From NCBI GenBank assembly GCA_021805395.1, contig JAJZFJ010000117.1, positions 1 through 52,382 on the forward strand: a DNA stretch of 52,382 bases. The letters are read 5' to 3'. Positions 2,496-50,362 of this stretch are shown here, piece by piece (the first letter of the stretch is position 1; the number at the start of each line of letters is the position of its first letter). The stretch comes from a bacterium (GTDB lineage Bacteria > Armatimonadota > Chthonomonadetes > Chthonomonadales > Chthonomonadaceae). The notes beneath the pieces are model-generated. The model made no database searches. It was given only the letters and a program-made list of their open reading frames with translations, and was not told the DNA's origin. The position numbers were made by a program, and so were the translations under genes.

Positions 2496-3433
2496 ACAAA
2501 GTACCCGTAGGGTTATTCCCTCAATACATTTTATATATCAAAAAAATGATCTTTACCTTGCGAATCAGTAATAATTTTCATTCGGAACCAACCTGCTGAT
2601 GATGCTGTGGCTGACGTTATCACATATGTAAGTTATTGTATCCCAGTGGTTTACTTAATTTGGATGTTACAGCCAATTGCCAAAATCTCTCAAATTAAGA
2701 GGTTGCTATACGCAAAAAATATTATTCTAATATCCCTTTGACATCGATGGTCCTTCCTCAAATTATCCTTAGATGGCTTCTACGAGTCTATTCAGCAATC
2801 TGGAAACTATCCTGCTCTTGAGCAAGTTTTCTCAACATTTTCCATCTGACTATGCATTACAAACGAATATATGTCAGCTGAATATGTCAAGATTAGAATG
2901 AGTTGTCCAGAGTAATACAATGCCAGCAAACGGAGTAATAGATGGCAGGAACTTTACGCACTACATTTCTGTTTAATGGTTGTTGCTTAATATGTGTTGG
3001 ACAATTATATATTATTACCATGCGTGCTGAGCACAAGTTCTATAATGCTCACGTTTAGGTGAACATTCCAGCCTCGCCACAAAACTGGTAAAGGAATCAA
3101 GATGCACTGTCACATGTGCGCAGTATTATTTATTTGAAGTCCATCGCAGTTTGAACAATGTTGTATGAATTAATTGAAACAGCTTCCTAGGTATAGCAAT
3201 CTCTAGCAAAATACGGTATTGATACCAGCTTATTGTTGTTACGTGTTTAAGAGCAGTATCATTGTAAATTTCTATTCAATAATTATAGTATAATATTTTT
3301 GATGCTTAGGTAGGTTAAATATGCATTTGCTTGCATATTTGCTTGAGCGGTCTAAACTGATGTAGTACGCATAGTATTTGATTAGATCGCCTGCATCATT
3401 TAGCCCTATTCTCTTTCTGTGAAAGGTTTTCTA
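2496..3433. other. Gene-free intergenic region, ~0.94 kb
   Basis: AT-rich stretch between the holin-like gene and the choice-of-anchor A gene. No open frame with a ribosome-binding site, no tRNA-like fold and no clear repeat was found. A TATAAT at 3289-3294 is the best -10 candidate, but the closest -35-like hexamer (TTGTAA at 3262) lies 21 bases upstream, so the promoter call is weak. A short AGGG/CCCT hairpin just after 2505 is too weak to call a terminator. Confidence 0.5.
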
Positions 3434-4423
3434 ATGCTTAGACAAAATCTCTCTATTGCTGCAGCGATAGCATGCTTAGGTGCGTGCACACTGCCAGCAT
3501 CTGCTAATGGTCTTGGTGCTGCTAGCAGCTTCAATGTTTGGGTCCTGGGGAATGCAACCACTAATGGTGGTGAGTCTGAAGGTGCAGTGGCTGTAGGTGG
3601 AAACTGGAATCTCCAAAATAACTGGAATTCAGTTATCCATAATATTCCTGGTGTTGTTCCTGGTGATGACCACATTGGAAGCTACATTCAGGGAAACCTG
3701 AGTGGTGGCGGCAGAATGCAGCTGGAAGACGGTACAGACCTGTATGTGGGTAGTACGGTCGATTCCTCCAACCAGTTCAATTACAACAGTGGTACTTTTG
3801 GTACAGGCAAACTTCTTACAGGAAACAATCCTGTGGCTGATAACATTGTCTCTCAATCTGCCAAATATCTAACCAACCTCTCTGGAACGTTAGCCGGGTA
3901 TGCAGGTACTTCAGTTGATACCAGTAACCAGAATGGGTGGACACTGGATGCTAGCACGGCTAACACCTATAGCACAGGAAGTGGAAAAAGTTTGGTAGTT
4001 TTTGACGTGGCTGCATCTGCTCTGAGTGATAATGCCATTATTGCATTGAATAACGTCACTAGTAACGACTCCATTCTGGTGAATGTTACAGGTAGTCTGA
4101 ATGGTATTCAGTGGAATGCCGATGCTCAGAATTCGTCGAGTATTGCAAATCAGATACTCTGGAACTATACTGGATCTGACTCTTTCAGCATCAACAGAAT
4201 ATTTGATGGCTCACTGCTCGCACCAAATGCCACAGTAACGCAGAGTGCAGATGTGAATGGTACACTGATTGCTGGTAACTGGAACAATACAGGAGTAGAG
4301 GATCATTCCTACAACTTCACCGGAAACCTGCCTTCACCACCTCCGGTTCCTGAAGCAAGCTCAGTGCTTGGCTTGGCAGGTATGCTCGCAATTGGCGGAC
4401 TGAGTGTACGTCGCCGACGCTAA
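3434..4423 (+). CDS. Choice-of-anchor A domain surface protein with PEP-CTERM-like tail
   Basis: A 329-aa exported protein. Residues ~1-26 form a signal peptide ending PASANG. The mature part is a choice-of-anchor A domain (collagen-binding-like adhesin fold): SSFNVWVLGNAT, SEGAVAVGGNWN near the start, and NRIFDGSLLAPNATV plus GTLIAGNWN near the end are its conserved strands. The C-terminus reads VPEASSVLGLAGMLAIGG followed by RRRR: a VPE motif, hydrophobic helix and basic tail, a PEP-CTERM-type sorting signal, implying exosortase processing. ATG 3434 is preferred over an in-frame GTG at 3419 because AAAGG lies seven bases before the ATG. The gene is monocistronic; the ligand is unknown. Confidence 0.85.
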   Translation: MLRQNLSIAAAIACLGACTLPASANGLGAASSFNVWVLGNATTNGGESEGAVAVGGNWNLQNNWNSVIHNIPGVVPGDDHIGSYIQGNLSGGGRMQLEDGTDLYVGSTVDSSNQFNYNSGTFGTGKLLTGNNPVADNIVSQSAKYLTNLSGTLAGYAGTSVDTSNQNGWTLDASTANTYSTGSGKSLVVFDVAASALSDNAIIALNNVTSNDSILVNVTGSLNGIQWNADAQNSSSIANQILWNYTGSDSFSINRIFDGSLLAPNATVTQSADVNGTLIAGNWNNTGVEDHSYNFTGNLPSPPPVPEASSVLGLAGMLAIGGLSVRRRR

Positions 4424-10040: not shown

Positions 10041-10069
10041 TTGACATATGGTCTGTTAAAGTCCATAAT
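10041..10069 (+). promoter_or_regulatory. Promoter of pilin cassette 1
   Basis: TTGACA (10041-10046), 17-base spacer, CATAAT (10064-10069). Predicted leader of about 125 bases before the pilin start. The same spacing recurs before the other two pilins. Confidence 0.6.
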
Positions 10070-10199
10070 TATTTAAGCAGAATTCACTAAACCTCAGTTT
10101 ATCAATATCCAACCAAAATGATAATGGTTACCCGGTTTTGGCAGAACATAATCTTGTTCTCGCCATGGTGATTTCTGTTAATATACGGAGGTGTCAATA

Positions 10200-11057
10200 G
10201 TGTTTTGTAACAAGCCCAGAACAAAGGGTGGTTTTACTCTGATTGAGCTATTAGTAGTAATAGCTATCATCGCAATTTTGGCGGCAATTCTTTTTCCTGT
10301 GTTTGCCCAGGCTAGAGAGAAAGCAAGGCAAACAGCCTGTCTTTCTAACGGTAATCAGATCAGTACAGCTATGATGATGTACACTCAGGACTATGATGAA
10401 ACCTATGTACTTGCTATCGAGACTAACGACTGGCAGGTATGGCCTGTTAGAATTCAGCCTTATGTCAAGAACTGGGATATGATGTACTGTCCTTCAGGTT
10501 CATCCAAACGGATGCCTAATTCGTGGTATGCGCTAGGTCCACAATATAACTGGTGGGGAAACTGGGGGCTGTGGGTTCAGTATGGATATAACGCAACTTA
10601 TCTAAATCAGGCAAATGCAGACTGCTCCAATTTAGGAATCAATGGAAATGCTTTCGGTCCACCTACCAAGCTAGCAGCTGTTCAGCAGCCAGCAGCAACT
10701 ATTCTGTTAGCTGAGACAGGGCAGGATGCTGAACCCGACTTTCCAGATAATGTTGGTACCGATATTGTCTACCCACCAGGTGGGTATACTGCGAATGATG
10801 CATGTACATATGGAGACTGGGGCGCATTTGGACCAGACTCGTTGTGGTATGGCAGCAATGGTTCAACGGCAGTAACTAAAATGGGATTTTTCAGACCGCG
10901 ACATAACGGTGGTGGAAATATCACATTTTGCGATGGACATTCCAAATACATGATGCCTGGTGCATTGGCTGCTGGTACAAACTGGAACCTCGCAACTTCC
11001 CAACCTGGCAATATCTATATAGTCGATCGAACACAGTACCTGTGGGATCTGCAATAA
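10200..11057 (+). CDS. DUF1559 / H-x9-DG type prepilin (cassette 1)
   Basis: A 285-aa pseudopilin exported and cleaved by a prepilin peptidase. The type IV prepilin motif is [18 protein letters not shown] at about residues 10-27, with cleavage expected after the glycine pair and methylation of the phenylalanine. [12 protein letters not shown] follows, the version common in Armatimonadota. The C-terminal domain ends with [12 protein letters not shown] (H-x9-DG motif) near residue 238. GTG at 10200 is chosen because GGAGG (10187-10191) lies eight bases before it; the GTG at 10191 overlaps the SD. It forms a unit with the lipoprotein that starts at its stop codon. Whether it builds a pilus, a secretion pseudopilus or a surface layer is unknown. 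Confidence 0.9.
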
Positions 11058-11275
11058 TGTCAGCTATGAGACGCTCATTTACTTTCGCGACATTTTGGGT
11101 GGTAGTAACTGGAATTGGGCTCGTGACGACAGGTTGCTCTAGTTCGAAACCAGCACTAATGACACAGGCACCACCCCCATCAAATCCAAATGACAAGCCT
11201 GAAATACCTGCTTTTAAAAAAATAATCCCTATGCATCCAGGTGCTATCGGGGCACCTACACAGGTTAAGAAATAG
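11057..11275 (+). CDS. Small proline-containing lipoprotein (cassette 1)
   Basis: A 72-aa protein too short for most annotation. It has a charged start (MSAMRRS), a hydrophobic stretch and a lipobox-like LVTTGC with cysteine near residue 29, so lipidation is likely although the residue at -3 is threonine rather than leucine. The mature tail is about 43 residues, rich in proline (APPPSNPNDKPEIPAF, IPMHPGAIGAP) and probably unstructured. The ATG overlaps the pilin stop (TAATG), implying coupled translation. Similar mini-proteins follow the other two pilins. An alternative start is ATG 11066. Function unknown. Confidence 0.65.
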   Translation: MSAMRRSFTFATFWVVVTGIGLVTTGCSSSKPALMTQAPPPSNPNDKPEIPAFKKIIPMHPGAIGAPTQVKK

Positions 11276-11313
11276 GCTGTTCCGATTAGGTGTTGCAATA
11301 GATGACATAAGAT

Positions 11314-11359
11314 AAAGAGAACAGTGGTATGAATATTCATACCCAGTTCTCTTTTTTTT
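11314..11359 (+). terminator. Rho-independent terminator of pilin cassette 1
   Basis: AAAGAGAAC (11314-11322) pairs with GTTCTCTTT (11346-11354); an inner GGTATGA/TCATACC stem extends it, and a run of eight T follows. Confidence 0.92.
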
Positions 11360-11617
11360 GTTAAATTTATCTTTTAGGCTTTAAAAATATATTGATTTAT
11401 CGATAGATATAATCTTATGAAATATCAATCACGTTTAGATATGTGTACTGTTTGATTTCGAATACCGTGGGTTTTATAAAATTTCTGTTTTATTAAAGAT
11501 CTTGCATGCTATAGTTAAAGTAATACAGCTAATTTACTTTCATGCTTAACTTTTAGATAGCATATTACTTTCGAGATACTATTAAAGCATCAAATTAGAC
11601 ATATTTTGTCTATAAAG
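11360..11617. other. AT-rich gene-free stretch
   Basis: Spacer between pilin cassettes 1 and 2. Nothing coding is supported. Confidence 0.5.
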
Positions 11618-11646
11618 TTGACTTTTATGTCTCAAGATGCTATACT
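11618..11646 (+). promoter_or_regulatory. Promoter of pilin cassette 2
   Basis: TTGACT (11618-11623), 17-base spacer, TATACT (11641-11646); an overlapping TATAAT lies at 11646-11651 with a poorer 22-base spacing. The predicted leader is about 155 bases and contains ATCCATG/CATGGAT arms that could fold. Confidence 0.65.
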
Positions 11647-11808
11647 ATAATTGTACGGGGGTATAGTGCGATGAAGCTCTTTAATCCATGTTATCACCGT
11701 TGCACTGCCGCGAATTTCATGGATAAATGAGTTTTATTATTCTGGGCAAGTCTTTAACACTTCCCAAAGTTATTTCGCCCCCGATTTTTTTTAGGGAGGG
11801 TCTTATCC

Positions 11809-12654
11809 ATGTATCATCAGCCTAAAAACAAGTCAGGCTTCACTCTTATTGAATTGCTAGTTGTTATTGCGATTATAGCAATTCTTGCTGCAATCCTCTT
11901 CCCCGTTTTTGCCCAAGCTCGTGAAAAGGCGAGGGCTATAACCTGTGTTAGTAACTTCCAGCAGGGAGCATTAGCAATTACAATGTATGTTCAGGATTAT
12001 GATGAACATATGGTTCCAGCTGAATATGGCTGTTGCTCCTACGATCCTGACACAGGTGACCGATTATGGCCGGAATTAGTTCAGCCATACATGAAGAACA
12101 CAGGCATCTACGTATGTCCTTCTGATCCATACAATACTCCATCCACTGATCTCGCCGATATGGGCTATAACAATAATTCCAATGCTGTTGAAAAAGCGTA
12201 TGCATATGCAATTACTGCAGACTTTGGATACAATTACTACTATTTGAGCCCTTTGAATGGGTTGCCCAAAGCTGATAGTATAGGCAACACAACTGCATTC
12301 GATGGGGTATCACTCGCTTCTATAGTGGAACCAGCTAATAATCTAATGCTCGTTGACTCCGTCTGGAATGTAGTAAATGATGCACCACAAGGAGGTGGTA
12401 ACTGGCTAATTGAAACACCTAGCTACTGGTATGGCACAGGGCAATACTGGTTTGGCGGGTGGCAGATAGATAATACAAATTCTGGATTTGTATATGGTGA
12501 AACATGGCCTCGACATTTTGGTGGAATGAATGTAGCATTCTGCGACGACCATGTAAAGTATCAGAAGCTTGGTCAGCTTATAGCTGGTGTGAATCCGCGT
12601 ACCTATGTAGTTTCAGATCCGGCAGCATACGAGTGGGGTGGTCCCGGGCAGTAA
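11809..12654 (+). CDS. DUF1559 / H-x9-DG type prepilin (cassette 2)
   Basis: A 281-aa paralogue of the pilin at 10200. [17 protein letters not shown] begins at about residue 8 and [12 protein letters not shown] follows; the N-terminal ~45 residues are nearly identical among the three pilins while the globular domains diverge. The late motif reads [12 protein letters not shown], so the final glycine of H-x9-DG is replaced by aspartate. The domain is rich in Tyr, Asn and Trp, as usual for secreted pilins. ATG 11809 has AGGGAGG upstream. Followed by a perfect hairpin, then two small membrane proteins. Confidence 0.9.
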
Positions 12655-12664
12655 GCAATGTAAG

Positions 12665-12703
12665 CTCAATAGTCAGTGGAATGATATTTTACTGACTATT
12701 GAG
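12665..12703 (+). terminator. Perfect hairpin after pilin 2 (terminator or mRNA 3'-end stabiliser)
   Basis: CTCAATAGTCAGT (12665-12677) pairs perfectly with ACTGACTATTGAG (12691-12703), loop 13. No U-tract follows, so read-through into the small genes is possible. Confidence 0.55.
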
Positions 12704-12752
12704 TAATCTTAAGTTGATATCTGGCAATACTTTGTAACTGATGAGGACAATC

Positions 12753-12959
12753 ATGCAAAGAAAAATTGATATGCCCATACTTGTCATTACAGTTATTTTG
12801 TGTGTATGTCTGATTTTGGGATTGTATCATGTATACAATCAGCCATCGGACAATAATTATAGCTCTATTCGATCCCAACTCCCTCCAAGGATTCCGGGTC
12901 AAGATAAACCTTTACCCCCTCCTCCAGGGATGCACATTCCAGGAACCATCAGTCGATAA
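12753..12959 (+). CDS. Small membrane-anchored protein with proline-rich tail (cassette 2a)
   Basis: A 68-aa protein: short basic head (MQRKIDM), one transmembrane helix at about residues 8-26 with no lipobox glycine-cysteine, then an exported tail of ~40 residues with LPPRIPGQDKPLPPPPG and the end GMHIPGTISR. N-in/C-out topology is expected. ATG 12753 is preferred over ATG 12741 because GAGGA precedes it at six bases. It is the third gene-order position after pilin 2 and shares its terminal G-x-H-x-P-G motif with the next small protein. Not a recognised family. Confidence 0.55.
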   Translation: MQRKIDMPILVITVILCVCLILGLYHVYNQPSDNNYSSIRSQLPPRIPGQDKPLPPPPGMHIPGTISR

Positions 12960-13024
12960 CTGTCATGCAACTCATGAAAGACTTTTGAACATTTCTCACA
13001 GTCTTTCTTCTTGAGAGGATTTTC

Positions 13025-13246
13025 ATGAATACTACGAAAAAAAATATGGTCATTGGCCTTCTTGTAATAGGACTGATACTAGCCATCATTTCGTTTAAAA
13101 CATATTTTCTTGATAATAGCAGTGGTTCAGGGGTGAGGGCAGCTGTAACAGCACAACTGCAAGCACAGCCTACTTCCAATGTACCTGAAGCCACTCAATC
13201 CGTTCCATCTACGGTTGGGATTCATTTACCAGGAAACAAACATTGA
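13025..13246 (+). CDS. Small membrane-anchored protein (cassette 2b)
   Basis: A 73-aa protein with a basic head (MNTTKKN), one transmembrane helix at about residues 8-24, then an exported tail rich in Ser, Gln, Thr and Pro that ends GIHLPGNKH. The motif G-[MI]-H-[IL]-P-G is shared with the gene 66 bases upstream, arguing that both are real and related. GAGAGGA precedes the ATG. No known family is recognised; a role with the adjacent pilins is inferred from repeated adjacency only. Confidence 0.55.
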   Translation: MNTTKKNMVIGLLVIGLILAIISFKTYFLDNSSGSGVRAAVTAQLQAQPTSNVPEATQSVPSTVGIHLPGNKH

Positions 13247-13272
13247 AGCAATTGTTCACAAAATTGCTTCAA
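13243..13272 (+). terminator. Hairpin at the end of pilin cassette 2
   Basis: TTGAAGCAATT (13243-13253) pairs with AATTGCTTCAA (13262-13272), loop 8. The stop codon of the small gene lies in the stem. No U-tract. Confidence 0.5.
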
Positions 13273-13304
13273 TAATTCACATTATAACTGTAGTAAAATC
13301 ACAG

Positions 13305-13333
13305 TTGACATAATTTAGATTAGAGGTTATACT
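13305..13333 (+). promoter_or_regulatory. Promoter of pilin cassette 3
   Basis: TTGACA (13305-13310), 17-base spacer, TATACT (13328-13333). The -35 box is a perfect consensus. Predicted leader about 160 bases; it ends CAGGGAGGTATCCATCC before the ATG, similar to the leader of pilin 2. Confidence 0.7.
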
Positions 13334-13501
13334 TGTTAGTATGCGGAATCCTCATTCTAAGTTTACATTTTGGCTCATCTAAAGAAGTTGTCATTCTTAA
13401 TGAGACGAATCATCCGGTATGGGATGAGAAGGGCAGGCAGAAGTGACAACAATCATCTTCTGTACATATTTTATCCGCCATAATCAGGGAGGTATCCATC
13501 C

Positions 13502-14392
13502 ATGTTCAGCCATAAGCCGAAACCATCGGGCGGTTTCACGCTCATTGAGTTACTCGTTGTAATTGCAATTATTGCAATTCTAGCCGCAATTTTATTCCCA
13601 GTCTTTGCTCAGGCACGTGAAAAAGCACGTGCAGCCACTTGTCTTTCCAATCTCAATCAGGAAGCATTAGCTGATTTGATGTATCAGCAGGACTACGACG
13701 AACACTTTCCATTAGGATACGGTTTCTATAATGGAAACTGGCTTACTTCAGGCGGTGTACCTTATCTGGGCGATTGTCCTGCAAACTGGCGTACTTCCAA
13801 TGCAGCATGGGTTGAAGGAATGGGTGAGTATGAATCCAATTCAATCCAGCCATATATGAAGAGTTATCAGGCAATGCACTGCCCTGATGCTACAGATGTT
13901 CAAAATATTGCAACAGCCGGTGCATCGGGGGCAAATGACCCCGCACAGGTCTCCAGTACATTTAATGGTCTCCTGATGGCCTATCCGGATGCAGGAGTTG
14001 TTCAACCAACAACTTGTCCCATGCTCACCGAACAGTGGGGTGCAGCATATTACAAAGGGTTTACAGACGTTAATCCATTCCTTAACTGCGCAAACCCTGG
14101 CCCATGTTCATACCAGCCTGCTACAGGTGGCTGCAGCAGTTCCGTGAATGGTCAGACTAGTGGAATGTTTGGTCAACCTGCAACATTAGGTGTACATTCT
14201 GGTGGTCAAAACTGGGCATATGTCGATGGACATGCCAAGTTCAAACACTTGTCTCTTCAGGATACGACTGTTACAACAGACTATAACCAGGAACCTTGGG
14301 CACAGTACAATACATCTGGTGAAGCAGTATCTTACTGGACAGATGGCTGCCATGCATACTATGATGAGCCAGACAACACAGCTGTTCACTAA
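13502..14392 (+). CDS. DUF1559 / H-x9-DG type prepilin (cassette 3)
   Basis: A 296-aa paralogue of the two upstream pilins: [18 protein letters not shown] at about residues 10-27, then [19 protein letters not shown]. The C-terminal motif is [12 protein letters not shown] (intact H-x9-DG) near residue 237. Several cysteines in the globular domain ([16 protein letters not shown]) could form disulfides after export. The ATG has AGGGAGG at seven to eight bases. It is monocistronic up to a strong hairpin, with a lipoprotein gene 117 bases downstream. Confidence 0.9.
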
Positions 14393-14401
14393 CTGACTAC
14401 C

Positions 14402-14437
14402 GACTGAGTTGAGAGAGGTCTCTCAACTCAGTCTTTT
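14402..14437 (+). terminator. Strong hairpin after pilin 3
   Basis: GACTGAGTTGAGAGA (14402-14416) and TCTCTCAACTCAGTC (14419-14433) are perfect inverted repeats, leaving a minimal loop after one or two end pairs open, followed by TTTTC. Confidence 0.75.
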
Positions 14438-14508
14438 CATGTGAATCACCTTTTTAGCAATATTCCCAATCCATGTAATTATGGACAATAATTCAAACTG
14501 GAGTCTCT

Positions 14509-14700
14509 ATGAGAAAATATCTCACTCTTGCAGCACTATCCCTCATTGGAAGTAGTTTACTGGTGGGGTGTAGTGGAAGTTCTAACAGTTCTACCAGTTC
14601 GACTGGCAACACTCCTCCAGCACCTCCAGCTAATGGAATGGCTGTAAAAGCAGGTGGCCAGCCCCAGGCACCTAAGGTGCTTCCAGCTCCACCTCCTTAA
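14509..14700 (+). CDS. Small proline/serine-rich lipoprotein (cassette 3)
   Basis: A 63-aa protein with a clear lipoprotein signal: MRKYLTLAALSLIGSSLLVGC, lipobox LVGC with cysteine at residue 21. The mature peptide is about 43 residues of low complexity, first Ser/Thr/Asn then NTPPAPPANG and finally APKVLPAPPP at the C-terminus. It resembles cassette 1's lipoprotein in size and in its proline-rich tail. TGGAG precedes the ATG. It lies downstream of the pilin 3 hairpin, so it may depend on read-through or an unseen promoter. Function unknown. Confidence 0.7.
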   Translation: MRKYLTLAALSLIGSSLLVGCSGSSNSSTSSTGNTPPAPPANGMAVKAGGQPQAPKVLPAPPP

Positions 14701-14740
14701 TCTATCTGAACATTATGGTAAGTTTAACTACTGATTACCC

Positions 14741-14780
14741 AATACCCACGATCACTATTTAGATTGTGGGTATTTTTCTT
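14741..14780 (+). terminator. Rho-independent terminator of pilin cassette 3
   Basis: AATACCCACGATC (14741-14753) pairs with GATTGTGGGTATT (14762-14774) with one G-T wobble, loop 8, followed by TTTCTT. Confidence 0.85.
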
Positions 14781-15543: not shown

Positions 15544-16635
15544 TTATCTTTTGAGTGCAGCAAGAACTTGCTGGGTAATGTCTGTAGCACCTCTGGAATG
15601 TGCAGGTACAAGTACAAAACCCAGGGAATGCGCTACCTGCTGAGCTGCCAGTTTTGCATCGGTATGAGCCATTACCATTAAATTTGCTCTTCGACGCGCA
15701 ATCATTGCTTCGGTTTGAGATTGAATTTGAGAGTGCGAATCGCGTATCTGAGTAATACGTGATACCCACTGAACTCCCTGGTTTAATTGAAGAGGGGGTG
15801 GTGACGGAAGAGGGACCATTTTACTCGCAGCTGAGTTGGAGAGATTGATATGCAGTCGATTAAGCAGTGTCATCTGTTGTGAGCTTGCTAGTTGTACTTC
15901 CTTGTCTATCTGTTCAAGCTGCTGCATTTTGTAAGCCTTAAGCTTGGCTTTAAATGCTATCTCCATCTGTATCCTGATGGGTACCATCTCCTTTACAGCT
16001 GTTGGTATGACCGCAGCCTGTAGTTGAGCGCGACGCGTGTTTAGGGCTAAAATGGTACTCTTTACAATATCCAGCTGATGTAATCTATCCAGCCCGGGCT
16101 GCCCAAATGCTCGCCCAGTGTTGGTACTGAGTGCTGCCTGTTTGAGTTCCAGATTTAGCAGCTGTCTATCAATGGTAGTAGACTGTAAATTTGCCGCAAT
16201 CTGGAGGGAGTTCTCATGGCGTTTCAATTGACGGTGGTAACTGTCCTCAAGATCATCTGTTTCACTGTTTTCGAAAAGTCTATACGGAATTCGTGAGGAG
16301 AGAGTAAGCATGTGCCTGTACTGCTTGAGATATCGGCTAAGGTTTTTGCTTACGTTTTGAGCACGTACTTTTGCCAGGGAACTGCCAACATTTTGCGGGG
16401 CGTTAAAAGGCGGAGTGGATGCAGAAATAGGTACTATATGTTCCTGTGATATGTTAGGAGCAAAAATTAAATGCGCGCTCTGCTCCAAACGGTCTGCTTG
16501 TAAAGTGTACGGATCATGTTGAACGAGTGTATTGAGATTCACCCATGCTCTCTGCACTGTGATTTTATTCTGATGACCACACCCGGAAATTAAAAGGAGT
16601 GGGGCAAGCAAGAGAGCACGGTTTGAACGAGGCAT
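15544..16635 (-). CDS. Lipoprotein with OmpH/Skp-like C-terminal region
   Basis: A 363-aa exported lipoprotein: MPRSNRALLLAPLLLISGC gives a lipobox ISGC with cysteine at residue 19. The body is mostly helical and charged (ELKQAALSTN, KLKAYKMQQLEQIDKEVQLA), consistent with long coiled-coil arms. The last ~40 residues, LGFVLVPAHSRGATDITQQV and a final LAALKR, align with the end of the neighbouring OmpH (QGYTVVLDTQ, GGTDITNAVLKVLNK), the Skp core strand and helix. I infer a membrane-tethered Skp-like factor; the N-terminal ~250 residues match nothing I recognise. The ATG is seven bases after the ompH stop, so the two are coupled. Confidence 0.7.
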   Translation of the reverse strand: MPRSNRALLLAPLLLISGCGHQNKITVQRAWVNLNTLVQHDPYTLQADRLEQSAHLIFAPNISQEHIVPISASTPPFNAPQNVGSSLAKVRAQNVSKNLSRYLKQYRHMLTLSSRIPYRLFENSETDDLEDSYHRQLKRHENSLQIAANLQSTTIDRQLLNLELKQAALSTNTGRAFGQPGLDRLHQLDIVKSTILALNTRRAQLQAAVIPTAVKEMVPIRIQMEIAFKAKLKAYKMQQLEQIDKEVQLASSQQMTLLNRLHINLSNSAASKMVPLPSPPPLQLNQGVQWVSRITQIRDSHSQIQSQTEAMIARRRANLMVMAHTDAKLAAQQVAHSLGFVLVPAHSRGATDITQQVLAALKR

Positions 16636-16642
16636 GGCAAAT

Positions 16643-17311
16643 CTACTTGTTTAGTACTTTTAAGACAGCATTTGTGATGTCGGTACCACCAAAAAGCACG
16701 GCTTGAGTATCTAGTACAACGGTGTAACCCTGTTCTTTTGCTACTGTAGCCACAGCCGCTTTGAGATTGGTGGCAGCTTCCTGAATTTTAGCATCAGTTG
16801 CTGCGTTGATATCTTTTACTGTTTGATCATGGAGGGACTGGAGATATGTTTCAGTGCTGCTCTCCATCTGAACATCGTTAGTCAGTGTCTGCTTGTCTTG
16901 AGCAGAAAGGCTGGATGCTGTAGCTGTCTGCAGTTTCTGGAAAAGCTGTAAAGCGTTCTGACTCTGAGCAGTGAGTTGAGTCATCTGGGTTTTTTCGCTT
17001 GGTGTTAAGCCCGCAGGTGTTGTGCTTTTAAGAGTTAATGCTGCAAGAGTTGCCTGATCCTGTGGACTGAGCAGCGGATTTGATTTGTACACATTGATGG
17101 TGCTGTCATACGCTGCTTTTTTGGCATCTACCACTTTTGCATAGTCAACCAGAAGCTTGTAATTACTACGTACTTTGCTAATGTCCACAATAGCTATTTT
17201 CATAGGGGGTGATGCAGGGTTGTCACCATGGGCTACTGTGAGTGATGCCACTATGCAAAGTACAAATGCTGTCACGGCTACCGAGTTCCAGTATTTAGGA
17301 GAAACTGTCAT
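16643..17311 (-). CDS. OmpH/Skp-family periplasmic chaperone
   Basis: A 222-aa periplasmic protein. A signal peptide spans about residues 1-30 (ending VAHGD); the mature part starts with the family's IAIVDISKV strand, passes through two long helical arms rich in Gln/Ala/Thr, and closes with EQGYTVVLDTQ and TDITNAVLKVLNK. Skp/OmpH trimers hold unfolded outer-membrane proteins on the way to BamA. It follows bamA, the gene order known in Proteobacteria. AAAGGA precedes the ATG. The insert NPLLSPQDQ..TPSEKTQM makes the arms longer than in E. coli Skp (161 aa). Confidence 0.88.
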   Translation of the reverse strand: MTVSPKYWNSVAVTAFVLCIVASLTVAHGDNPASPPMKIAIVDISKVRSNYKLLVDYAKVVDAKKAAYDSTINVYKSNPLLSPQDQATLAALTLKSTTPAGLTPSEKTQMTQLTAQSQNALQLFQKLQTATASSLSAQDKQTLTNDVQMESSTETYLQSLHDQTVKDINAATDAKIQEAATNLKAAVATVAKEQGYTVVLDTQAVLFGGTDITNAVLKVLNK

Positions 17312-17325
17312 AAATATCCATTCCT

Positions 17326-17359
17326 TTCGATGTGAAGATACATCTATTGTATCATCGAA
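17326..17359 (-). promoter_or_regulatory. Hairpin in the ompH leader
   Basis: In the 262-base gap between bamA and ompH, TTCGATG (17326-17332) pairs with CATCGAA (17353-17359), with an inner GATACA/TGTATC helix, just upstream of the ompH SD. A second inverted repeat, GTTAGCAGT (17449-17457) with ACTGCTAAC (17515-17523), lies nearer bamA. One or both may separate expression of ompH from bamA. Confidence 0.35.
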
Positions 17360-17573
17360 CCTATTTTGTGTCTATTCTTACGGTTTATGCGTTCATTCGC
17401 TAAGCAACGCAACATAGCCAGTCTTTAACTCAACATAAAGGGGAACCAGTTAGCAGTGCTTCTTTATGCAGATTACCTCTACTATTTTACTCGACTACAT
17501 CAGTATTGTGACAAACTGCTAACTCATACGCTGCATTTCATCAGATATGACATTACAGATGCGAAGTATGCGA

Positions 17574-19526
17574 TTAGAATGCCTGTCCGATGCTGAAGTC
17601 CGCTCGTCCACCCTGATCACCGATACCATAATCTATTCTAAGGTCTCCAAGTGGAGTTCTCACCAGAGCTCCAACACCGACCGCTACATGCATTCTGAAG
17701 CCGCTTTGAAGGTAGTTTGTCAGGTTAACGGTGGAGTATGGTCCACCCCAGGCATCTCCTGAGTCAACGAATAGTACACCTGTAAAGTTTGGAGCAATAG
17801 GCTGGCGAAGCTCTACAGAAGCCAGCAGCTCATTTTTCCCCCAGAACCGGGAATCCAGGTAACCGCGAAGTGTATCGGCACCTCCCACAAAGAACTGTTC
17901 AGCGAAAGGTAAGGTGCCTATTGAAGTCCCTGCGGTTAGTCTTAGAGCAAGGATTGTCTCATCTTTCGTTGGATTGTTAAGAGGACGCTGTCCAGTAAGG
18001 CTAAAGTAACGGCTGGCAGAGATGCTTCCTTTAAGAAAGTGTGCAGTTCCAAATACTCCAGGTACAGATATGCCTGCCAGTGAGATAGGGGAGGTGAGTG
18101 TGGCAACTCCTCCCTCCACGCTAAGCTCTTCGTATCCTCCTTTTGAGGGGTTAAGAGCATAGTCACGCGTATCATGATGCAGTGTGGCACCTGCTGCAAA
18201 GATAGGGCCATCCTGAATTATCTGAAGATCCTGGAGGGGAAGATCAAGCAGATCAGTCTGAACATTTTCTGCTCTCAAGAAAACAGAAGCACTATAATTT
18301 AAATTGATTGGACGTCCTAATGTGATAGTACCGCCAACCCTCTGCTGGTTATAGTAGGAGCTTCCTCCCAGATTATTGCTGCCAAACGCGCTGAAGCCGC
18401 TTGAGAATGGATAGATTGTCTCGTCATAGAGCTGTACACCCAGTGCAGTATGGTGGCTGTCGAGGTAGGGATCTGTAAAGCCCAGGTTTACGCTGTTTCT
18501 ACCAAGTACACCTCCTGTAGATCCGCGTATGCTGAGTGTATCTGCATCCCCTTCGAAGTCATCATCAGATGCCTGAACATATCCAATCACACCCTCTGTT
18601 TGACTGTATCCAACGCCTCCAATAATCGAACCAGTGTGAGTTTCGGTGATATGAAGGGTTATGGAGTATTGTCCAGGTGCAACAGTTTCCGGTGTGATGG
18701 TGATATTCTTGAAGATTCGCAGGTTATACAGCGCTCGCAAATCTGCATCGAGTGTCTTCGTATTATAGTAACTTCCCACCTTTGTGTTCATCTCTCGGGT
18801 AACTACAAAAGGATGGGTTTTGTGAAGGCCAACGATGTGAATTTGAGCAACTTTTGCGACAATCAGTGGCAAGTCGAGAACACCATTTGCCCCCATGGAA
18901 ACATCTGGGCTTACCTGCATCTGATATCCTTCAGAAGTGTAGAGGGCTGTGATCGCGTTAGTGTCGCTAACAAATGTGCCGTAATTAAACACGCCTGTCA
19001 GGTTTTTGAGGTAACCCATCACAATTTGTGGCTTTATTGGACCAGTTCCTGTGAGGGTGATGTTTGTTACGACAGGATTCTCTTCCACCTGTATCACCAC
19101 AGTGCACGTCCCATTCGCCGGGGTAGGCTCTTCATCAATGACAGACACAGGTGGGGATTGATTGCTAAATGAACCGAACAGATTTGTGGAAGTAAGGTTG
19201 CTTATCATTTCCTCTTGAAGTGCAGGAGTAAACTGTTCACCTATTTTCACCCCACTCTGTGAAATGATAAATGGGCTGTTCAGAACTTTATTGCCTTCCA
19301 CAACTACTTTTTTGATGACAGGATATGTCGTGGTATCCAGGTCTGGTGCTGGAGTAGTTGGAGTAAGAGGGTTAGTTCCGGTAGGTGCTGCTGTGGTACC
19401 TTTTGGGTTTGGAGTGGTACCCTGGGCTGCAGCTACCCTGGGATTAGCTGCGAGCAGCGCAAATAGTGCGCCTGTCAGTGTGAGAGGGCAGGGGCGTAAG
19501 ATAGCCCCGTTTCGGCCTCGCTTCAT
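17574..19526 (-). CDS. bamA: BamA/TamA-family outer-membrane protein assembly factor
   Basis: A 650-aa Omp85 protein. Signal peptide at about residues 1-34 (ending VAAAQG), a Pro/Thr-rich linker, then POTRA domains from about residue 68 (YPVIKKVVVEGNKVL; NITLTGTGPIKPQIV; QIHIVGLHKTHPFVV), about three being visible against five in E. coli, followed by a 16-strand-type barrel with FFVGGADTLRGYLDSRFWGK (the RGY motif on L6) and the C-terminal ...GRADFSIGQAF with a terminal aromatic. It inserts beta-barrel proteins in the outer membrane. An AAGGAG lies upstream of the ATG. TamA is an alternative name because tamB is close, but adjacency to ompH favours BamA. Confidence 0.9.
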   Translation of the reverse strand: MKRGRNGAILRPCPLTLTGALFALLAANPRVAAAQGTTPNPKGTTAAPTGTNPLTPTTPAPDLDTTTYPVIKKVVVEGNKVLNSPFIISQSGVKIGEQFTPALQEEMISNLTSTNLFGSFSNQSPPVSVIDEEPTPANGTCTVVIQVEENPVVTNITLTGTGPIKPQIVMGYLKNLTGVFNYGTFVSDTNAITALYTSEGYQMQVSPDVSMGANGVLDLPLIVAKVAQIHIVGLHKTHPFVVTREMNTKVGSYYNTKTLDADLRALYNLRIFKNITITPETVAPGQYSITLHITETHTGSIIGGVGYSQTEGVIGYVQASDDDFEGDADTLSIRGSTGGVLGRNSVNLGFTDPYLDSHHTALGVQLYDETIYPFSSGFSAFGSNNLGGSSYYNQQRVGGTITLGRPINLNYSASVFLRAENVQTDLLDLPLQDLQIIQDGPIFAAGATLHHDTRDYALNPSKGGYEELSVEGGVATLTSPISLAGISVPGVFGTAHFLKGSISASRYFSLTGQRPLNNPTKDETILALRLTAGTSIGTLPFAEQFFVGGADTLRGYLDSRFWGKNELLASVELRQPIAPNFTGVLFVDSGDAWGGPYSTVNLTNYLQSGFRMHVAVGVGALVRTPLGDLRIDYGIGDQGGRADFSIGQAF

Positions 19527-19576
19527 AAGCTAGTTCAGTTCTCCTTCTAAAATAAAACATTCTTGCAATACCCAGA

Positions 19577-20308
19577 CTAATATCGTAAGTATGGCTCTAA
19601 TTTCTTTCTCAGCATTCCTCGGGCTCTAGAAAGTCGGGTCTTCACATTTTCTAGTGATAGCCCGGTAACATCCACAATTTCATTATAGGAGAGCTGCTGA
19701 TATTCACGCAATAACACAATCTCCCTGTAGTCTGCAGGGAGGCCATTCACAGCAGTCAGAATACGTTGCTGCAGTTCCTGATCTTCCAGTAGCTGATGAG
19801 GGGCACTGCTGGAATCGGGTATATCTCGTGTAACATTCATACTATCCTGGTTACCGACTATCTGGTCAAGAGATTCCGTTCGGATAGACCTGTGCCGCTC
19901 CTGTTGCCGTATGCGGTTAATACATAGATTCCGAGCAATTTGATACAGCCAGGTAAAAATTTGGGAATCACCACGAAAATGATCAAAATGCCTGTAGGCA
20001 TTCACGAATGTTTCCTGCGTTATATCTGCTGCTTCTTCATAGTCGTTAATCATGCGATAGACTGCATTGAATAACCTTTTCTCGTTCTTCTCTACAAGTG
20101 CGTCAAACTGCTGTCGTCTGATGAGATCATCTGGCACATGAGCACTCATCTGGTCAGCAGTTCCATGTGATGTGTGGTTTCCATTCTCAATCACTCTGGC
20201 TGGCAATGCATGAACTGTGCTCTCAGAACCCGATTGACAGGGGGATGATGACAACTTGCGCTTGTCTGGATTGGACATTGCAGTTTTTACAATCGAAAAA
20301 GATGTCAT
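19577..20308 (-). CDS. ECF RNA polymerase sigma factor
   Basis: A 243-aa ECF-type sigma factor. After a ~60-residue poorly conserved head, the sigma-2 region runs from about residue 65 (RLFNAVYRMINDYEEAADIT, QETFVNAYRHFDHFRG, FTWLYQIARNLCINRIRQ), a linker, then sigma-4 at about residues 180-240 (LPADYREIVLLREYQQLSYN and SLENVKTRLSRARGMLRKKL). TGGAGGG lies six bases before the ATG. No anti-sigma gene sits beside it. It lies between tamB and bamA on the same strand, which suggests envelope stress or outer-membrane control of the RpoE kind, although this is inferred from position only. Confidence 0.93.
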   Translation of the reverse strand: MTSFSIVKTAMSNPDKRKLSSSPCQSGSESTVHALPARVIENGNHTSHGTADQMSAHVPDDLIRRQQFDALVEKNEKRLFNAVYRMINDYEEAADITQETFVNAYRHFDHFRGDSQIFTWLYQIARNLCINRIRQQERHRSIRTESLDQIVGNQDSMNVTRDIPDSSSAPHQLLEDQELQQRILTAVNGLPADYREIVLLREYQQLSYNEIVDVTGLSLENVKTRLSRARGMLRKKLEPYLRY

Positions 20309-20400
20309 CCTAACCCTCCAGTGGATGTAGCGAAAGCTTAAAGGATTGAAAGATGCGATTATTTGTATAAGTCATGTTTGTGTACGACGCTAAATATGTG

Positions 20401-20437
20401 TGATTGTTACAGTCTATCATCATATTCATAACAATCA
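20401..20437 (-). terminator. Hairpin between tamB and the sigma factor
   Basis: TGATTGTTA (20401-20409) pairs perfectly with TAACAATCA (20429-20437), loop 19. It sits in the 200-base gap after tamB on the minus strand, with no U-tract; probably a weak terminator or processing site. Confidence 0.4.
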
Positions 20438-20509
20438 TTCTTTTGTGTTCATTAAAATTTAATGGCACGAAATTCTCTTCAATCCTAGACTAGTATGGCA
20501 TATCATACA

Positions 20510-23500
20510 TTAGAAGCGATAGATACCCTCCAATTGTAACGCCTTGTCATACTGCTCATTCTGTTCGTAAGACAGCTGAAGGTTGTCACTAAATCGCCAG
20601 CTGAGTTTAAGGTCGTTAAACTGCTGGGTACTGCCAAGATCGCGTGTGTAGGTGATATAAAAAGGCCCAATTAGTTGTCTGGTGAGTGTGAAGCTGAACT
20701 GTCTGAGTGGATCATAGTTTAACGACAAGTCTTCAAAACCCAGTGCTTGCGCAGGCTTTTCAAACAGAGTGGGAAGAACTGAGTTGGCCAGAACACTGGT
20801 AATCTGTTGTGTAATCACCTGCCCCGTATTGTGTCCCAAGTTTGCGATTGCCCCAATGCCAAGGGCATTTGCAACTTGCGTCATCAACTGTTTCTGGTCG
20901 CCTGAGTAATCAGGGGGATTCGTCTGGAAATCCAGCTGGAGCCCTTGCTGAGAGGAGTTCAGATTTTCGGTAGCTCCACTAAGATCACCCCTTGCTGTTA
21001 CCACAACATTATAGCGTTTCTCGCCAGAGAAACCGGGAGATGGTAAATCCAGTGCGGTTTGTGCTCGAACATTCACATGTACTCCCAACGTTGGAGAGCC
21101 TGGTGTAGCTGGTGAATAAACAGGGTAGGTGAGATCGATTAATCCAGGCGGCAGCACTTTAAATCGGGCAGTGGGTAATGAAAGCACTCCCTGTTTAATT
21201 ACCAGCTGTCCGGCAAGGTGTATAGGTGAGGATATGGCTGTAGTTTGAGATTTGGCTGCTGTTCTCTGAGCAGTAAGCGTGAGCAGTCCCTCTACCTGAG
21301 CATCTAGTCCTGATGCTGAAATTGTAACATTTTTGCCAAGCGCTACTCCCATGCGTAGATGCTGGAGTACTGGAAGTGCAAAACTTGATCCCTGACCTCC
21401 CGTTGTGAGAGTAGGCGGTGAAAAATATGCATTGGTTATATTCACATTTCCTGTGAGATCAGGATTCACCAGGGAGCCAGCTATTCCGAATGTGAGTTGC
21501 GCTTCGCCTCGTGCCACGCCACTTCCAAATCCTGGAATTGGACTCTGGTTGAACAGCAGCTGTTTTGCTGCAATCTGGATTGAACTGCCATCGCCTCGAC
21601 CGATGATTGGAAGCGATCCTGAGATAGTGATAGGAGATCCCTGTTTTTCTTTGCCAGGTGCTGAGTTGTCTGCCAGCCAGGATTGTGCTGTGAAACCAGG
21701 GGCAACACTCAATGTGGTGCCATTGAACAGTAGTTCGCCATGAATATTGCTCAGCCAGGTGGCAATATAGGTGGGTTTTTGATTAGGTTTCACCAATCCA
21801 ACTTGCAGCTTTTTGGCATCTACCTGTACTGATCCCGTCACTAATGGATCCGCCAATGTGTTAGTAAGATCTGCTTTTGCTGCAACTGTACCATCGCTGG
21901 AAATGGATATGCCTGGAACCAGTGCCGCAAGATCCTGTATTTTTTGGGAAGGGATGTTCGCAGATAGCTCTAGTGGTGCAGTTCTACTTAAGTAGGGTGC
22001 ATGCCATTGAAAACCGAAGCTGCCATGCATATTTCCTGAGAAGGTTCCTCTAGATCCATCCTGTCGAGTATATGAACGTGAGATTGTGATGAGATCTACG
22101 GTAGCTTTAGGCTGCTCAATTACAGCTCTGCTCAAAACTATCTGATCTATCTTCTGACCACCTACTTGAAGATTACTGAGCTGTGCTGATGCTTCAACCA
22201 CAGGTGATTTCAGGTTTCCGGAAACGCTGCATGTGAGATCGCCCTGGCCGTTCAAATTCTTTATCTGTTTCTCTATAGTGGGTGAGAAGCTAATGGGCAA
22301 AGCCCTCGCTATTGCTCCCACATTCAGATTATATAATCCAAAGTTGCCGGATACTGCACCATGCGTAGTGAGATCTGCACTGTTTGCCAGCACTATTCCA
22401 AGAGGACTTAAAAGACGTAAGGCTGGACCCTGAACGCCAGATGCCGGCATTACAATGTGGTGTTTATCGCCAGAAGCGCTTGCATTTATCTGATCGATCT
22501 GTACTCCACCAACTACCAGATTCTTCCCAGAAACCAGAATGGAAGCAGTTGGATTGGTAATAAGTCCCGACAGTTGTAAAGAGCCAGAAAGGCCGCCTGA
22601 TAATGTTGTGCTGGAGTCTTTCAGGAATGAATTCAGAGCAGAGAGTGAACTGCTCTGCTTCATTTTGGACTGCAGATATGCTGATCGAATACTATCGAGT
22701 GGAATATCGGTCCATGAAGCATTTCCATTCACTTGTCTGGTTGTGAGATTGTATGTTGCATTTTGAATAGATAACTTGCCTGGCGCACTTCCTGTAGAGC
22801 TGTTATCATTTGTGGGTAGAGTGAGCGTGAGGGCATTAACACCGATCTGTTTCCCTGAGGTACTGAGTGTGCCAGTGAGATTTCCGGCATTGAAAGCTAG
22901 GTACCGAAGATTGTCAACGTTTAATGAGGCTGAAGCAACAGGATCCGTAAGAGTGCCACTAGCGGTGCCCTGTATGTGAAGTATGCCAGATACTTTCTGG
23001 TCGGGTGAGCCAGTTGCTGCGGTTAACAGCTGCTGTATCTGCATTCCTTTGACCGAGTATGTAGCACTTAGACTGTGCTGCGTGTTCACATGAGATATTA
23101 ATGATAGTGATCCTCCAGCCATCTGAAGATTAAGATAACCCTGCAAAGTGTGTAAAGGGCTGTAGTATGCAGATAGTGCGGCAGTTGTTATAGGGATACC
23201 ATTCATGGATCCATTATTTAGAGTGAGTGTTGCTGGAGTCAGCATGTATGGACTTTTTAGAGGTCCTTCAATCTCGATTGGACTACTACTTAGAGAACCC
23301 AGGATGGGTGAGACCGAACTGGCACCAGATGCTCCGATTTGAACGTGTGCTAACTGCATCAGGTCACCTATATCGAATTTGCTAGCCTGAACTGTAGCCA
23401 CAATGGAAGGAGATTTAGATTGATAGTTATCGATATTGCCTGAAAAATCCACTACACCTGGGTAACGAACGATAGATCCTTTAGAGAGGGCAATCTGGTT

Positions 23501-25477: not shown

Positions 25478-25523
25478 CTTGCTGTACCTCCTTATACTTT
25501 GCACTCAGTCAACAGATACGAAA

Positions 25524-41552: not shown

Positions 41553-44500
41553 CTAAACGCTGTCTACAGCTTCTTGTTTCATTCCGGCTATCATCTCGAG
41601 ATTATGTGCAGAAGCACTATGATTCGGATTGACTCGAAGTTGTTGCCGATACGCTTCTGCGGCTGCCTCATATTGCCTAATCTGGAAAAGTGAGTTGCCC
41701 AGAACAAAGTAGCCGGTTTCATGATTCGGTTGTCGTTCAAGTCCTGCCACATATAGTTCTACCGCACGGCCATACTCTCCAATAGAATATAGAAGATCGC
41801 CAGCATTGAAGTAGGAGTTTGCGTAGGAGGGATCGATCATGATAGCTTCAGTGTAGCTGTCTAGAGCCTCGACTGTCTGGTTCATGGCAGCCAGTATCCT
41901 GCCTCTATTCACACATACCTCAGCATTAGGGTCTGTGAGATCTCCCAATCTCTCTATGGCATCAAGAGCGCGAGACCACTGTTTTGTGTTCTCGTAACAC
42001 GTGGCCAGGGAAGCGACCACTACCGGAACACTTGGGTCTGCATCATCCAGAATTTGCAGGTGTGAAATCGCCTCATTGTACTGTTCATTTTTCACAAGCA
42101 GTTCAGCCAGCGACAACCTTGCCTCCAGATGATTTGGTACAAGTTCAAGCACCTTCTTCAGGTCAGAGATTGTCTCATCTTCCCTGCCTAAATGCTTCTT
42201 GCAAACAGTCCCCATATAGAGTGGTTCATGCCAGTTCGGTTGTCCTTCCAAGGCAAGGGCGCATTGCTCCAGCGCCTCCTCATATTTTTCCTGTGCTGTG
42301 AGTGCCATAGCCAGACCGAAATTGGCTTTGAACGTGCCTATGCCAATATCTCCACTTTTCTGTATGAATCCGCTTCCTCCGCTTCCAAGGTGCAGAGCCC
42401 TTCTAAACGCAACTTCTCCCTCTTCATACTGTCCAAGATGAAGATGACAAAATCCTCTGGAAAACTCAATTCCACTATGAACTAATCCTAATTCATCTGC
42501 TTTGCAGCACACTTCAAGTCCATCTTCCGCACGTTCAATACGGTGAAGTGCAGTTGCCCATTCCACATAAAGCAGTGTGGTGTACTCCTCCGAGGAGATA
42601 GCGGAGACTGCAGCCTGACTGAAGTACTTGGCAGCATTTTCCATATCCCCTTTTGTGAAATAGGCATTTCCCAGGTTGAATAACTGAAACGCCTTCAGCC
42701 ACTCTTCTGGGCACTCTTCCACCTCCCGGTGCAGCATTCTAAGGAATCGGTCATGTTTGTTTCGGGCAGACATCACTTCTGCGGCATATCCAAAGTGATC
42801 AATCTTGAGGTTTTCGTTATGCATGCACGAGTAACCTTTTGCTAGAATTGATCCAAGATTTTGCTCATGGATTCTGCCAGTAAACGTCACATCTGGCGTT
42901 AGTCTGAACAGTCGCGCAGCATGGTGAAACGCCTTCTCACCATCTGGTACACGCTCTGTGGTGGATAGCCAGTTACAGATTGAGACCATGAATGCACCAA
43001 CGTTTGCTGGAGCCATATCGACCTCTTCTCTAAATACAGTCAGTGATGAGGGATCGATCTCTTCGTCAGCATCAAGCCACAAGCCCCAGTCACCTGTTGC
43101 ATGTTTAAGAGAGACATTACGCGCTTCTGCAAAGTTATCCGTCCATTCAAAGTGTACAATTTTGGCGCCAAACTCTTCCGCTATCTGAACGGTTTTGTCG
43201 GTAGATCCCGTATCTACCAAAACAATTTCGTCAACCAGTCCCTGAACGCTTTGTAGGCAGTTTCTAAGAAAATGCTCTTCATTTTTCGCAATCATACAGA
43301 GTGATATGCGTGGTCGCGAAGGTGTATTCTGTTTCGTGAGAATCTCTTCTGCCTCATTGTATAGTGCCATCAGCCGTGTATATTCTGCAGAGCGTCTAAC
43401 CTCTTTGCGCCTGTTAGATGGTGCCTGTCTCAACAGACGTCTGGAAAGTTGAAGAACGCCATCGTGTGCCCGTTCTACCATCCTCTGGACATCCTTGTTA
43501 TCAGGCGAGATTTTTAATGCAATAAGGGCGTGTTTGAGAGACTCCTCAAATTTGCCGTCATCCATTAAACAGAATGCCAAGTTATGGTGGATATCTCTGG
43601 AATTGGGAGATTTTATTACACCTTCATGAAGCAGCGAAAGTGCTCTCACTTTCTCGCCGCGCCTGAAACAGGCAATGGCAAGAGCGCTGATAACTTCAGG
43701 ATCATCTGGATTCTCTTTCAGGCACGTTTCAAGAGTATCAAATCCTTTTTTCCACTCTGCTCGTCGAAGCATCTGTACTCCACTGGCAACTCTCTCTGCA
43801 TAATCTTCCTTCACGAAATCGTCGAGGGAGATGTTCTCTATGCCTAAAGAGATAGGAATATTCGTGACAGATTTGCTTTCGGTTCGGTCGCTCAGCTCCA
43901 GAAGTCTGCCAGCAGCAATGGCAGCTGCATGATCCCATGTATGATGGGAATGCATGCATTCTGCTGCCCTCAGTCCAGTGGCTGCTGCTTCAGCTCTATG
44001 GTTGTTAACATAGCGCATCTGCTCTATGAGTGCCTCAACGCTGGGATCTCCCCAGAATGGGAATCCCATCGTCTCGGTGTTGGAGATTGAGCAGACAGTG
44101 TGAGCGGTTCTGCGAGCAGGCACATAGTATACAGTGGAGGCGGATGTGAAATCTAATGGAGCTCCAAACTCCGTACAGATTACGGGCTTACCGCATGCCA
44201 TTGCCTCAGCAATTGGCAGTCCATAACCTTCACCTCTGAAAGGATGCACCAGACAGTCGCAGGCGGCATATAGGTCGGTAATCTCCGAGTCTGTCAGTTC
44301 CGAATCTGTGTACAGAATTGTTGCAACATTACCCACAGCCTGCAGCTCTTCTATTTGCGGCTTTAGACCCTGGTTTGCATAAAAGGAAGAGGTTCCGAAA
44401 TCTTTAATTAGTAGTGCAACGTTATCCTGCGGGGTGAAAGCAGCAGCCCATGCATTGAGAAGTGCATCGGCACCTTTTCTTGCTATTGTGCCTCCCACAA

Positions 44501-45050: not shown

Positions 45051-45052
45051 TT

Positions 45053-47185: not shown

Positions 47186-47197
47186 AGTGTTTCTGCA

Positions 47198-50155: not shown

Positions 50156-50362
50156 GTGTGCAGCATCCTTATTTAGGTGGATGAAATCTGGTGAAAGTTG
50201 TTCCTGTAATGGAGCTTCCAATGTATGTATCGGAAATCAGCCACCGAAATCTCAGGTTTTCCTGAGAGCTAGTAGGTATACCAGTTTACTGCTAAAAACA
50301 CCTATCACTCCTCTAACATCATTGTTATCTGACCGAGAATAGTTACCAGGAGAAAACGATTG
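50156..50362. promoter_or_regulatory. Divergent intergenic region with hairpin
   Basis: Region between the minus-strand glycosyltransferase operon and cheC. TCTCAGG (50250-50256), loop TTTT, CCTGAGA (50261-50267) makes a perfect small hairpin that could be an operator or a leader structure. No box pair was clear enough to call. Confidence 0.3.

Follow-up and report, generated by a model that had tools for sequence, protein, structure and literature searches.

Why should one prepilin gene after another have, just behind it, a gene whose product is tiny and anchored in a membrane? The question is posed by a contig (C187, GenBank JAJZFJ010000117.1) from the 4.16 Mb genome, in 319 contigs, of a bacterium of the Chthonomonadaceae in the phylum Armatimonadota; its 52,382 nt are here called the window. 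Three DUF1559 prepilin genes (pilins 1, 2 and 3, starting at 10200, 11809 and 13502) are each followed there by one or two anchored proteins of 63–73 aa, either lipoproteins (partners 1 and 3) or single-helix membrane proteins (partners 2a and 2b). All of these genes, described in an original prediction, are confirmed, and the observation extends to the phylum. Enrichment, a converse test, co-duplication, orthologous pairs and tail motifs all speak for the accompanying proposal of joint action by pilin and mini-protein, so that the functional guess as a whole stands as partly supported.

Pairing of prepilins with small anchored proteins

Is the pairing more than coincidence? We defined a partner as an open reading frame of 40–125 aa with a basic start, one hydrophobic segment and a hydrophilic tail, following the gene in question with a start no more than 250 nt away. 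The original prediction had set a genome-wide comparison of DUF1559 genes with random genes as its check. In the same genome, where our statistics cover ~470 kb around DUF1559 genes and the control genes come from the same stretches, a partner follows 28 of 47 DUF1559 genes as against 8 of 238 controls (Fisher p = 2.6e-19); three of these eight control matches are non-independent, two being family members near DUF1559 genes and one a prepilin fragment. At the 47 DUF1559 genes, the rule has a background of 2/47 when the antisense strand is read and of 0.9/47 after shuffling. A Shine-Dalgarno (SD) sequence of at least 4 bases lies 5′ of 19 of the 28 partners, compared with 13% of random sites. 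Among the pairs, 12 have a partner that overlaps the pilin stop by 1–13 nt, ten of them in a TAATG/ATGA-type arrangement. The enrichment recurs in 12 relatives within the order (17/51 DUF1559 genes vs 8/188 controls) and in Capsulimonas (4/16 vs 3/69); counts in relatives are lower than in the own genome, and because H-X9-DG matches decided which loci of the order were sampled, the relatives are biased towards that motif. Such a micro-partner sets these genes apart from 17 DUF1559 copies in UBP13 (G031, 0/9) and G032 (0/8), judged by the same rule, and from three copies on planctomycete plasmids, which likewise have no micro-partner of this kind.

Does the relation also hold in reverse? For the single-helix partners we used a profile, A2, many of whose rows come from own-genome loci and eight from relatives. 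It yields 12 own-genome matches below 1e-5, 10 of which lie within 1.5 kb of a prepilin; the remaining two lie ~3 kb off, behind a TPR-type gene on a contig with two DUF1559 genes. Counted by locus, 11 of 13 in the own genome have a prepilin next to the match. Because many A2 rows stem from those very loci, the own-genome matches are partly circular, and the test in other genomes is the cleaner one despite the eight rows from relatives. There, the best match per genome has a prepilin within 1.5 kb in 26 of the 29 other genomes of the order, and in a phylum-wide sample the match sits beside a prepilin at 13 of 17 loci. Where the neighbouring prepilin could be oriented, 46 of 47 were on the strand of the match, with the partner 3′ of the prepilin in 34 cases and 5′ in 12. 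The class, whose N-terminal consensus is close to MK[KR]x[IV]xP, occurs in all 31 genomes of the order and in 49 of the 121 in the phylum sample; at least 10 partners of the own genome are anchored by a transmembrane helix.

Pilins and partners differ sharply in charge. The partner tails, 15% of whose residues are Pro (PP count 126 vs 86 in shuffles, with a maximum of 104 in 200 shuffles), have a mean net charge of +3.3, with 65 of 69 positive and none negative. The pilin domain that follows the helix averages −11.4 and is negative in 69 of 69 cases (−5.1 per 100 aa vs −1.0 in controls). These short, basic tails are predicted to be unstructured, and the model of the micro-protein consists of a helix and a coil, with a predicted template modelling score of 0.23. 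Between the two genes, own-genome gaps of at least 40 nt contain a strong hairpin in 16 of 18 cases, as opposed to 6 of 31 among the controls (Mann-Whitney test, p = 6e-6; the hairpin shuffles preserved single-base composition only). A U-tract accompanies just one of these hairpins. Outside the own genome, a hairpin is present in 7 of 19 pilin-partner gaps.

Inheritance of the pairs and exchange of the anchor

Relatives of pilin 1 that are 88% identical (L152, L153, L154) have a lipoprotein partner at −4 whose tail reads PLLTKAPPPSNPNLKPEISPFKRMPMAPPTMGGG or differs little from it. L153 and L154 each hold two pairs of this type in tandem, so pilin and partner have been duplicated as a unit. 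Among the lipoprotein relatives of partner 1, the Nei-Gojobori ratio of nonsynonymous to synonymous rates (dN/dS) is 0.06–0.24 where computable, a rough value as dS is saturated or nearly so. At a further locus (L155), the pilin is 58% identical to pilin 1, and the partner, again at −4, has a transmembrane helix in place of the lipobox, with a tail that can be aligned with those of the lipoproteins (K.PPP ... KR.P ... P[TM].GGG; dN/dS 0.36–0.53 against them). The type of anchor has thus changed and the tail has been retained.

The other two cassettes have kept their partners as well. Relatives of pilin 2 are 88% (G027) and 58–62% (G019–G021) identical over the C-terminal part, and the tail pattern of partner 2a,.PP..PG.DKP..PPPG...PG.I, is kept in G027 as well as in G019, G020 and G021, which belong to another family. 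Pilin 3 has relatives of 33–47% identity in 18 other genomes of the order, and in G030, G023, G003, G024 and G020 the related pilin is followed by a lipoprotein gene at +12 to +22. All three window cassettes are thus represented, each with its own partner, in other genera or families, in part with the neighbourhood preserved: relatives of cassettes 1 and 2 adjoin in G021, and those of pilins 2 and 3 lie in window order on one strand, ~2 kb apart on G019:C325 and ~3 kb apart, with other frames between, on G020:C14. A fourth pair, on contig C313 of the own genome (L040), has a single-helix partner with the tail motif YTPGVPPW and is spread over five or more of the phylum's families (L162–L165, L266–L274, L276, L279). 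Its pilin core is 43–85% identical, and [YF].PG.PPW, usually YTPGVPPW, is present in 15 of 15 aligned relatives, a constancy that is partly a selection effect as these relatives were picked by that motif. Pilin and partner are thus inherited as pairs in different genera and families, pointing to a dedicated helper for each pilin.

Three cassettes and their surroundings

How are the cassettes of the window built? All of their features lie on the plus strand. Cassette 1 is preceded by a promoter-like site at 10041..10069 (TTGACA-17-CATAAT; 11/12 consensus matches), among the two best of the scan. Pilin 1 (10200..11057) starts with GTG behind the SD sequence GGAGG and scores above cut-off with PF07596, PF07963 and TIGR04294. 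Its stop is overlapped by the ATG of partner 1 (11057..11275; TAATG), a 72-aa lipoprotein whose basic, Pro-rich tail is kept in L152–L154 and G021, and whose lipobox reads TTGC where relatives have TTGC, TAGC or VAGC. A terminator-like hairpin with a T run, read from the sequence, follows the cassette at 11316..11358 (inner stem 11326–11343).

A promoter-like site with an extended −10 element (11618..11646; 10/12 matches plus TG) precedes cassette 2, in which pilin 2 lies at 11809..12654 (PF07596 and PF07963 above cut-off), and an intercistronic hairpin without a U-tract follows at 12664..12704 (19-pair stem, z −5.3). Partner 2a (12753..12959), a 68-aa single-helix membrane protein with the tail LPPRIPGQDKPLPPPPGMHIPG, is preceded by the SD sequence AGGA; an alternative start at 12741 has none. 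Partner 2b (13025..13246) is a single-helix protein of 73 aa. The hidden Markov model of the transmembrane class finds the two at E 2.4e-12 and 3.7e-6, with their own sequences in the training alignment. Cassette 3, preceded by a promoter-like site at 13305..13333 (TTGACA-17-TATACT; 11/12 matches), has pilin 3 (13502..14392; PF07596 and PF07963 above cut-off) and a hairpin at 14402..14433 (14-pair stem, z −4.9) that is followed by TTTTC and weakly terminator-like, and carries partner 3 (14509..14700), a 63-aa lipoprotein with a clear lipobox, LVGC, and a Pro-rich tail. The hairpin scan places a terminator-like structure after it at 14741..14774. The three top promoter-like sites of the scan thus fall one 5′ of each pilin, and since that of cassette 3 lies 3′ of 13025, we assign partner 2b to cassette 2. 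Going by consensus matches only, the natural reading of the array would be three transcription units.

By PF07596, the window pilins belong with the DUF1559/H-X9-DG prepilins (PF07596, TIGR04294) of Planctomycetes and relatives. With TIGR04294 (H-X9-DG-CTERM, cut-off 19 bits), pilin 1 scores 25.4, pilin 2 17.9 and pilin 3 14.7 bits; H-x9-D[GD] is present in the latter two although their scores are below cut-off. Against the Verru_Chthon cassette proteins C and D (TIGR02599 and TIGR02596, cut-offs 256.5 and 70 bits), the window pilins reach at most 18.9 and 23.4 bits, with the prepilin helix only.

Elsewhere in the window, an exported protein with a PEP-CTERM-like tail, VPEASSVLGLAGMLAIGGLSVRRRR, is encoded at 3419–4423. 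Adjoining the cassette array on the minus strand (15544–25504) is a cluster that, by eye from the translations, resembles one for outer-membrane biogenesis, with Skp/OmpH-like, BamA-like (650 aa) and TamB-like (1664 aa) proteins. Also by eye, three consecutive large glycosyltransferase-like proteins of 1165, 710 and 1007 aa are encoded at 41553–50221 on the minus strand, with apparent repeat domains and, in one of them, a methyltransferase-like part.

A possible role for the partners

What could these proteins do? We consider it about an even call that they are cognate, membrane-held accessory micro-proteins of their pilins, made in small amounts. The lipid or helix would keep the tail on the periplasmic side of the inner membrane, the location that fits best because lipid anchor and transmembrane helix swap. 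There, the basic tail might bind its own pilin, just after processing, by the acidic domain, and the partner would hold that pilin or present it to an assembly machine of the type IV pilus/type II-like kind that all pairs share, probably without being built into any filament itself; the hairpin would keep the partner's amount below that of the pilin. Machines are few compared with ~50 DUF1559 genes: the genome encodes two secretins, and four contigs (98, 156, 206 and 225) carry T2SSF genes. Secretin pilotins, which we also considered as a role for the small proteins, were rejected, as two secretins face dozens of partners.

Is there a precedent for such an arrangement? That the partners have no described function, as originally stated, holds insofar as no Pfam or NCBIfam family scores above cut-off for the four window micro-proteins and six relatives. 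The gene layout, however, is already known from Pseudomonas pilin-accessory cassettes. In P. aeruginosa, tfpY genes lie 3′ of pilA behind an attenuating terminator of Rho-independent type, and TfpY aids pilus assembly and may bind pilin, yet is not found in the pilus; TfpY-like proteins, ~235 aa long, cross the membrane with three helices and end in a C-terminal globular domain (PMC11841053). As in the TfpX/TfpY/TfpZ cassettes, the accessory gene lies directly 3′ of the pilin gene (here in 28/47), a hairpin stands between the genes (here in 16/18 gaps of at least 40 nt, mostly without a U-tract), and a membrane protein with a variable periplasmic part is tied to particular pilin types. Unlike TfpY, the partners have 50–120 aa, one interchangeable anchor and an unstructured, basic, Pro-rich tail; unlike in the Pseudomonas cassettes, hairpins are low in U and there are dozens of copies per genome. 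As the partners differ from TfpY in size and topology, we read the likeness as one of working alike, not of membership. PilP, an inner-membrane lipoprotein with a flexible stretch that serves pilus assembly, resembles them in anchor and flexible stretch; compared by description rather than by sequence, it differs in being a larger, folded protein that is single-copy and belongs to the alignment complex.

Several observations weigh against the accessory role. Some 40% of the DUF1559 genes lack a partner, yet their pilin domains are equally acidic. Partnerless pilins also carry a hairpin 3′, so that the hairpin belongs to the pilin gene. A Mantel test of pilin against tail gives 0.108, within the permutations, with no correlation below the level of close relatives, for which reason we do not claim lock-and-key binding. 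The AlphaFold model of the pilin domain (predicted local distance difference test score 64) has no significant PDB match, the only one being a Myxococcus pilin over 59 columns at E 0.22. Finally, Asp at +2 is absent from every partner lipoprotein, which makes a place in the outer membrane possible; by the E. coli rule, these lipoproteins would go there.

This last point favours the view that the partners are outer-membrane or base anchors tying the finished pilin structure to the envelope. The Pro-rich tails are typical spacers and the gene layout is sub-stoichiometric, as such an anchor would have it; yet at least 10 own-genome partners have a transmembrane helix, which is incompatible with an outer-membrane location, and one orthologous group contains both types of anchor. 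We regard the anchoring role, which the original prediction had listed first and for which we find no specific support, as unlikely. Its companions, capping or gating of a surface structure, find no specific support either: the anchor swap fits the inner membrane best, and the tails, besides being short and basic, are predicted to lack structure.

A second view takes the pairs as modules of sugar uptake or glycan degradation, in which the pilin-like protein binds glycan or presents an enzyme, its small partner serves as a tether for one or the other, and no filament is involved. Its attraction lies in the genomic context. The genome has 18 LacI genes, and twelve of them are within 3.7 kb of a DUF1559 gene (C15, C54, C127, C166, C204, C224, C245 with two, C301, C304, C313, C319), where ~2 would be expected from the ~10% of the genome that is so close. 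These regulators often stand directly 5′ of the DUF1559 gene on the same strand, with exported enzyme-like genes often 3′, and such loci look like a pilin-based counterpart of sugar-utilisation loci. A LacI-type sugar domain is found in 14 of 67 DUF1559 neighbours; others include exported enzymes, Vps10/GH74-like, TPR and ASPIC/UnbV proteins. Moreover, operons of ATP-binding cassette (ABC) importers have internal low-U terminators after the binding-protein gene, whose long-stem hairpins lead to over-production of the first gene relative to the next (PMC9045158). The regulated carbohydrate context and the low-U hairpin are alike here, although no ABC transporter is present and the effect of the hairpin would be by analogy. 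Against this view stands the strict conservation of full prepilin cleavage and methylation signals and of the pilin helix, and many cassettes, all three of the window among them, adjoin no sugar gene (those of the window no regulator either). Overall, this alternative is improbable to much the same degree as the anchor.

That the small genes encode unrelated lipoproteins or membrane peptides travelling with a mobile, often duplicated pilin gene, the null explanation, would account for tails that diverge fast between cassettes and show no global correlation with the pilin, but is very improbable given purifying selection on the partners, tail motifs retained across families, the same-strand rule and the converse test.

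For the accessory role, the sugar regulators suggest a further step. As LacI/GntR-type regulators adjoin many cassettes and would switch them, the cell may swap pilins according to sugar supply. An upstream regulator is not significantly commoner for partnered pilins (7/28 vs 1/20 partnerless, p = 0.12). A bolder version, which we rate as slightly less likely than either the anchor or the sugar module, is that the dozens of sugar-switched pairs in Armatimonadota are interchangeable surface or secretion modules on one shared pilus-type machine, with the micro-protein as the lock that decides which acidic pilin loads. We found no description of such a modular, glycan-responsive pilin-swapping system in any phylum.

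In planctomycetes, the literature treats DUF1559 either as a large family without a known function or as a solute-binding one (PMC2754498, PMC10632474), with 74 paralogues in Rhodopirellula baltica (PMC2754498) and 68 in the largest group of Planctopirus limnophila (PMC10632474). On a plasmid of Planctomyces sp. SH-PL62 (L192:3878–5334), a DUF1559 gene is followed at +54 nt by one whose 136-aa product carries a lipobox-like GCG close to the N-terminus and contains a stretch GRVLVDDRPAEGVYVVF, possibly a different type of partner in that phylum; the plasmids searched gave no match to pilin 1. Within Armatimonadota, the Fimbriimonas genome has 79 PulG-type pseudopilin genes, and the relevant passages of its description do not mention such partners (PMC4072686); in the open-access literature, we found no paper joining Armatimonadetes or Armatimonadota with pilin terms. 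DUF1559 pilins are among the largest paralogous families in several phyla, with no known function. The small partner, the YTPGVPPW tail motif and the link to sugar regulators offer concrete handles on that function, and the swap between lipid and helix anchor is a direct clue to how the partners work.

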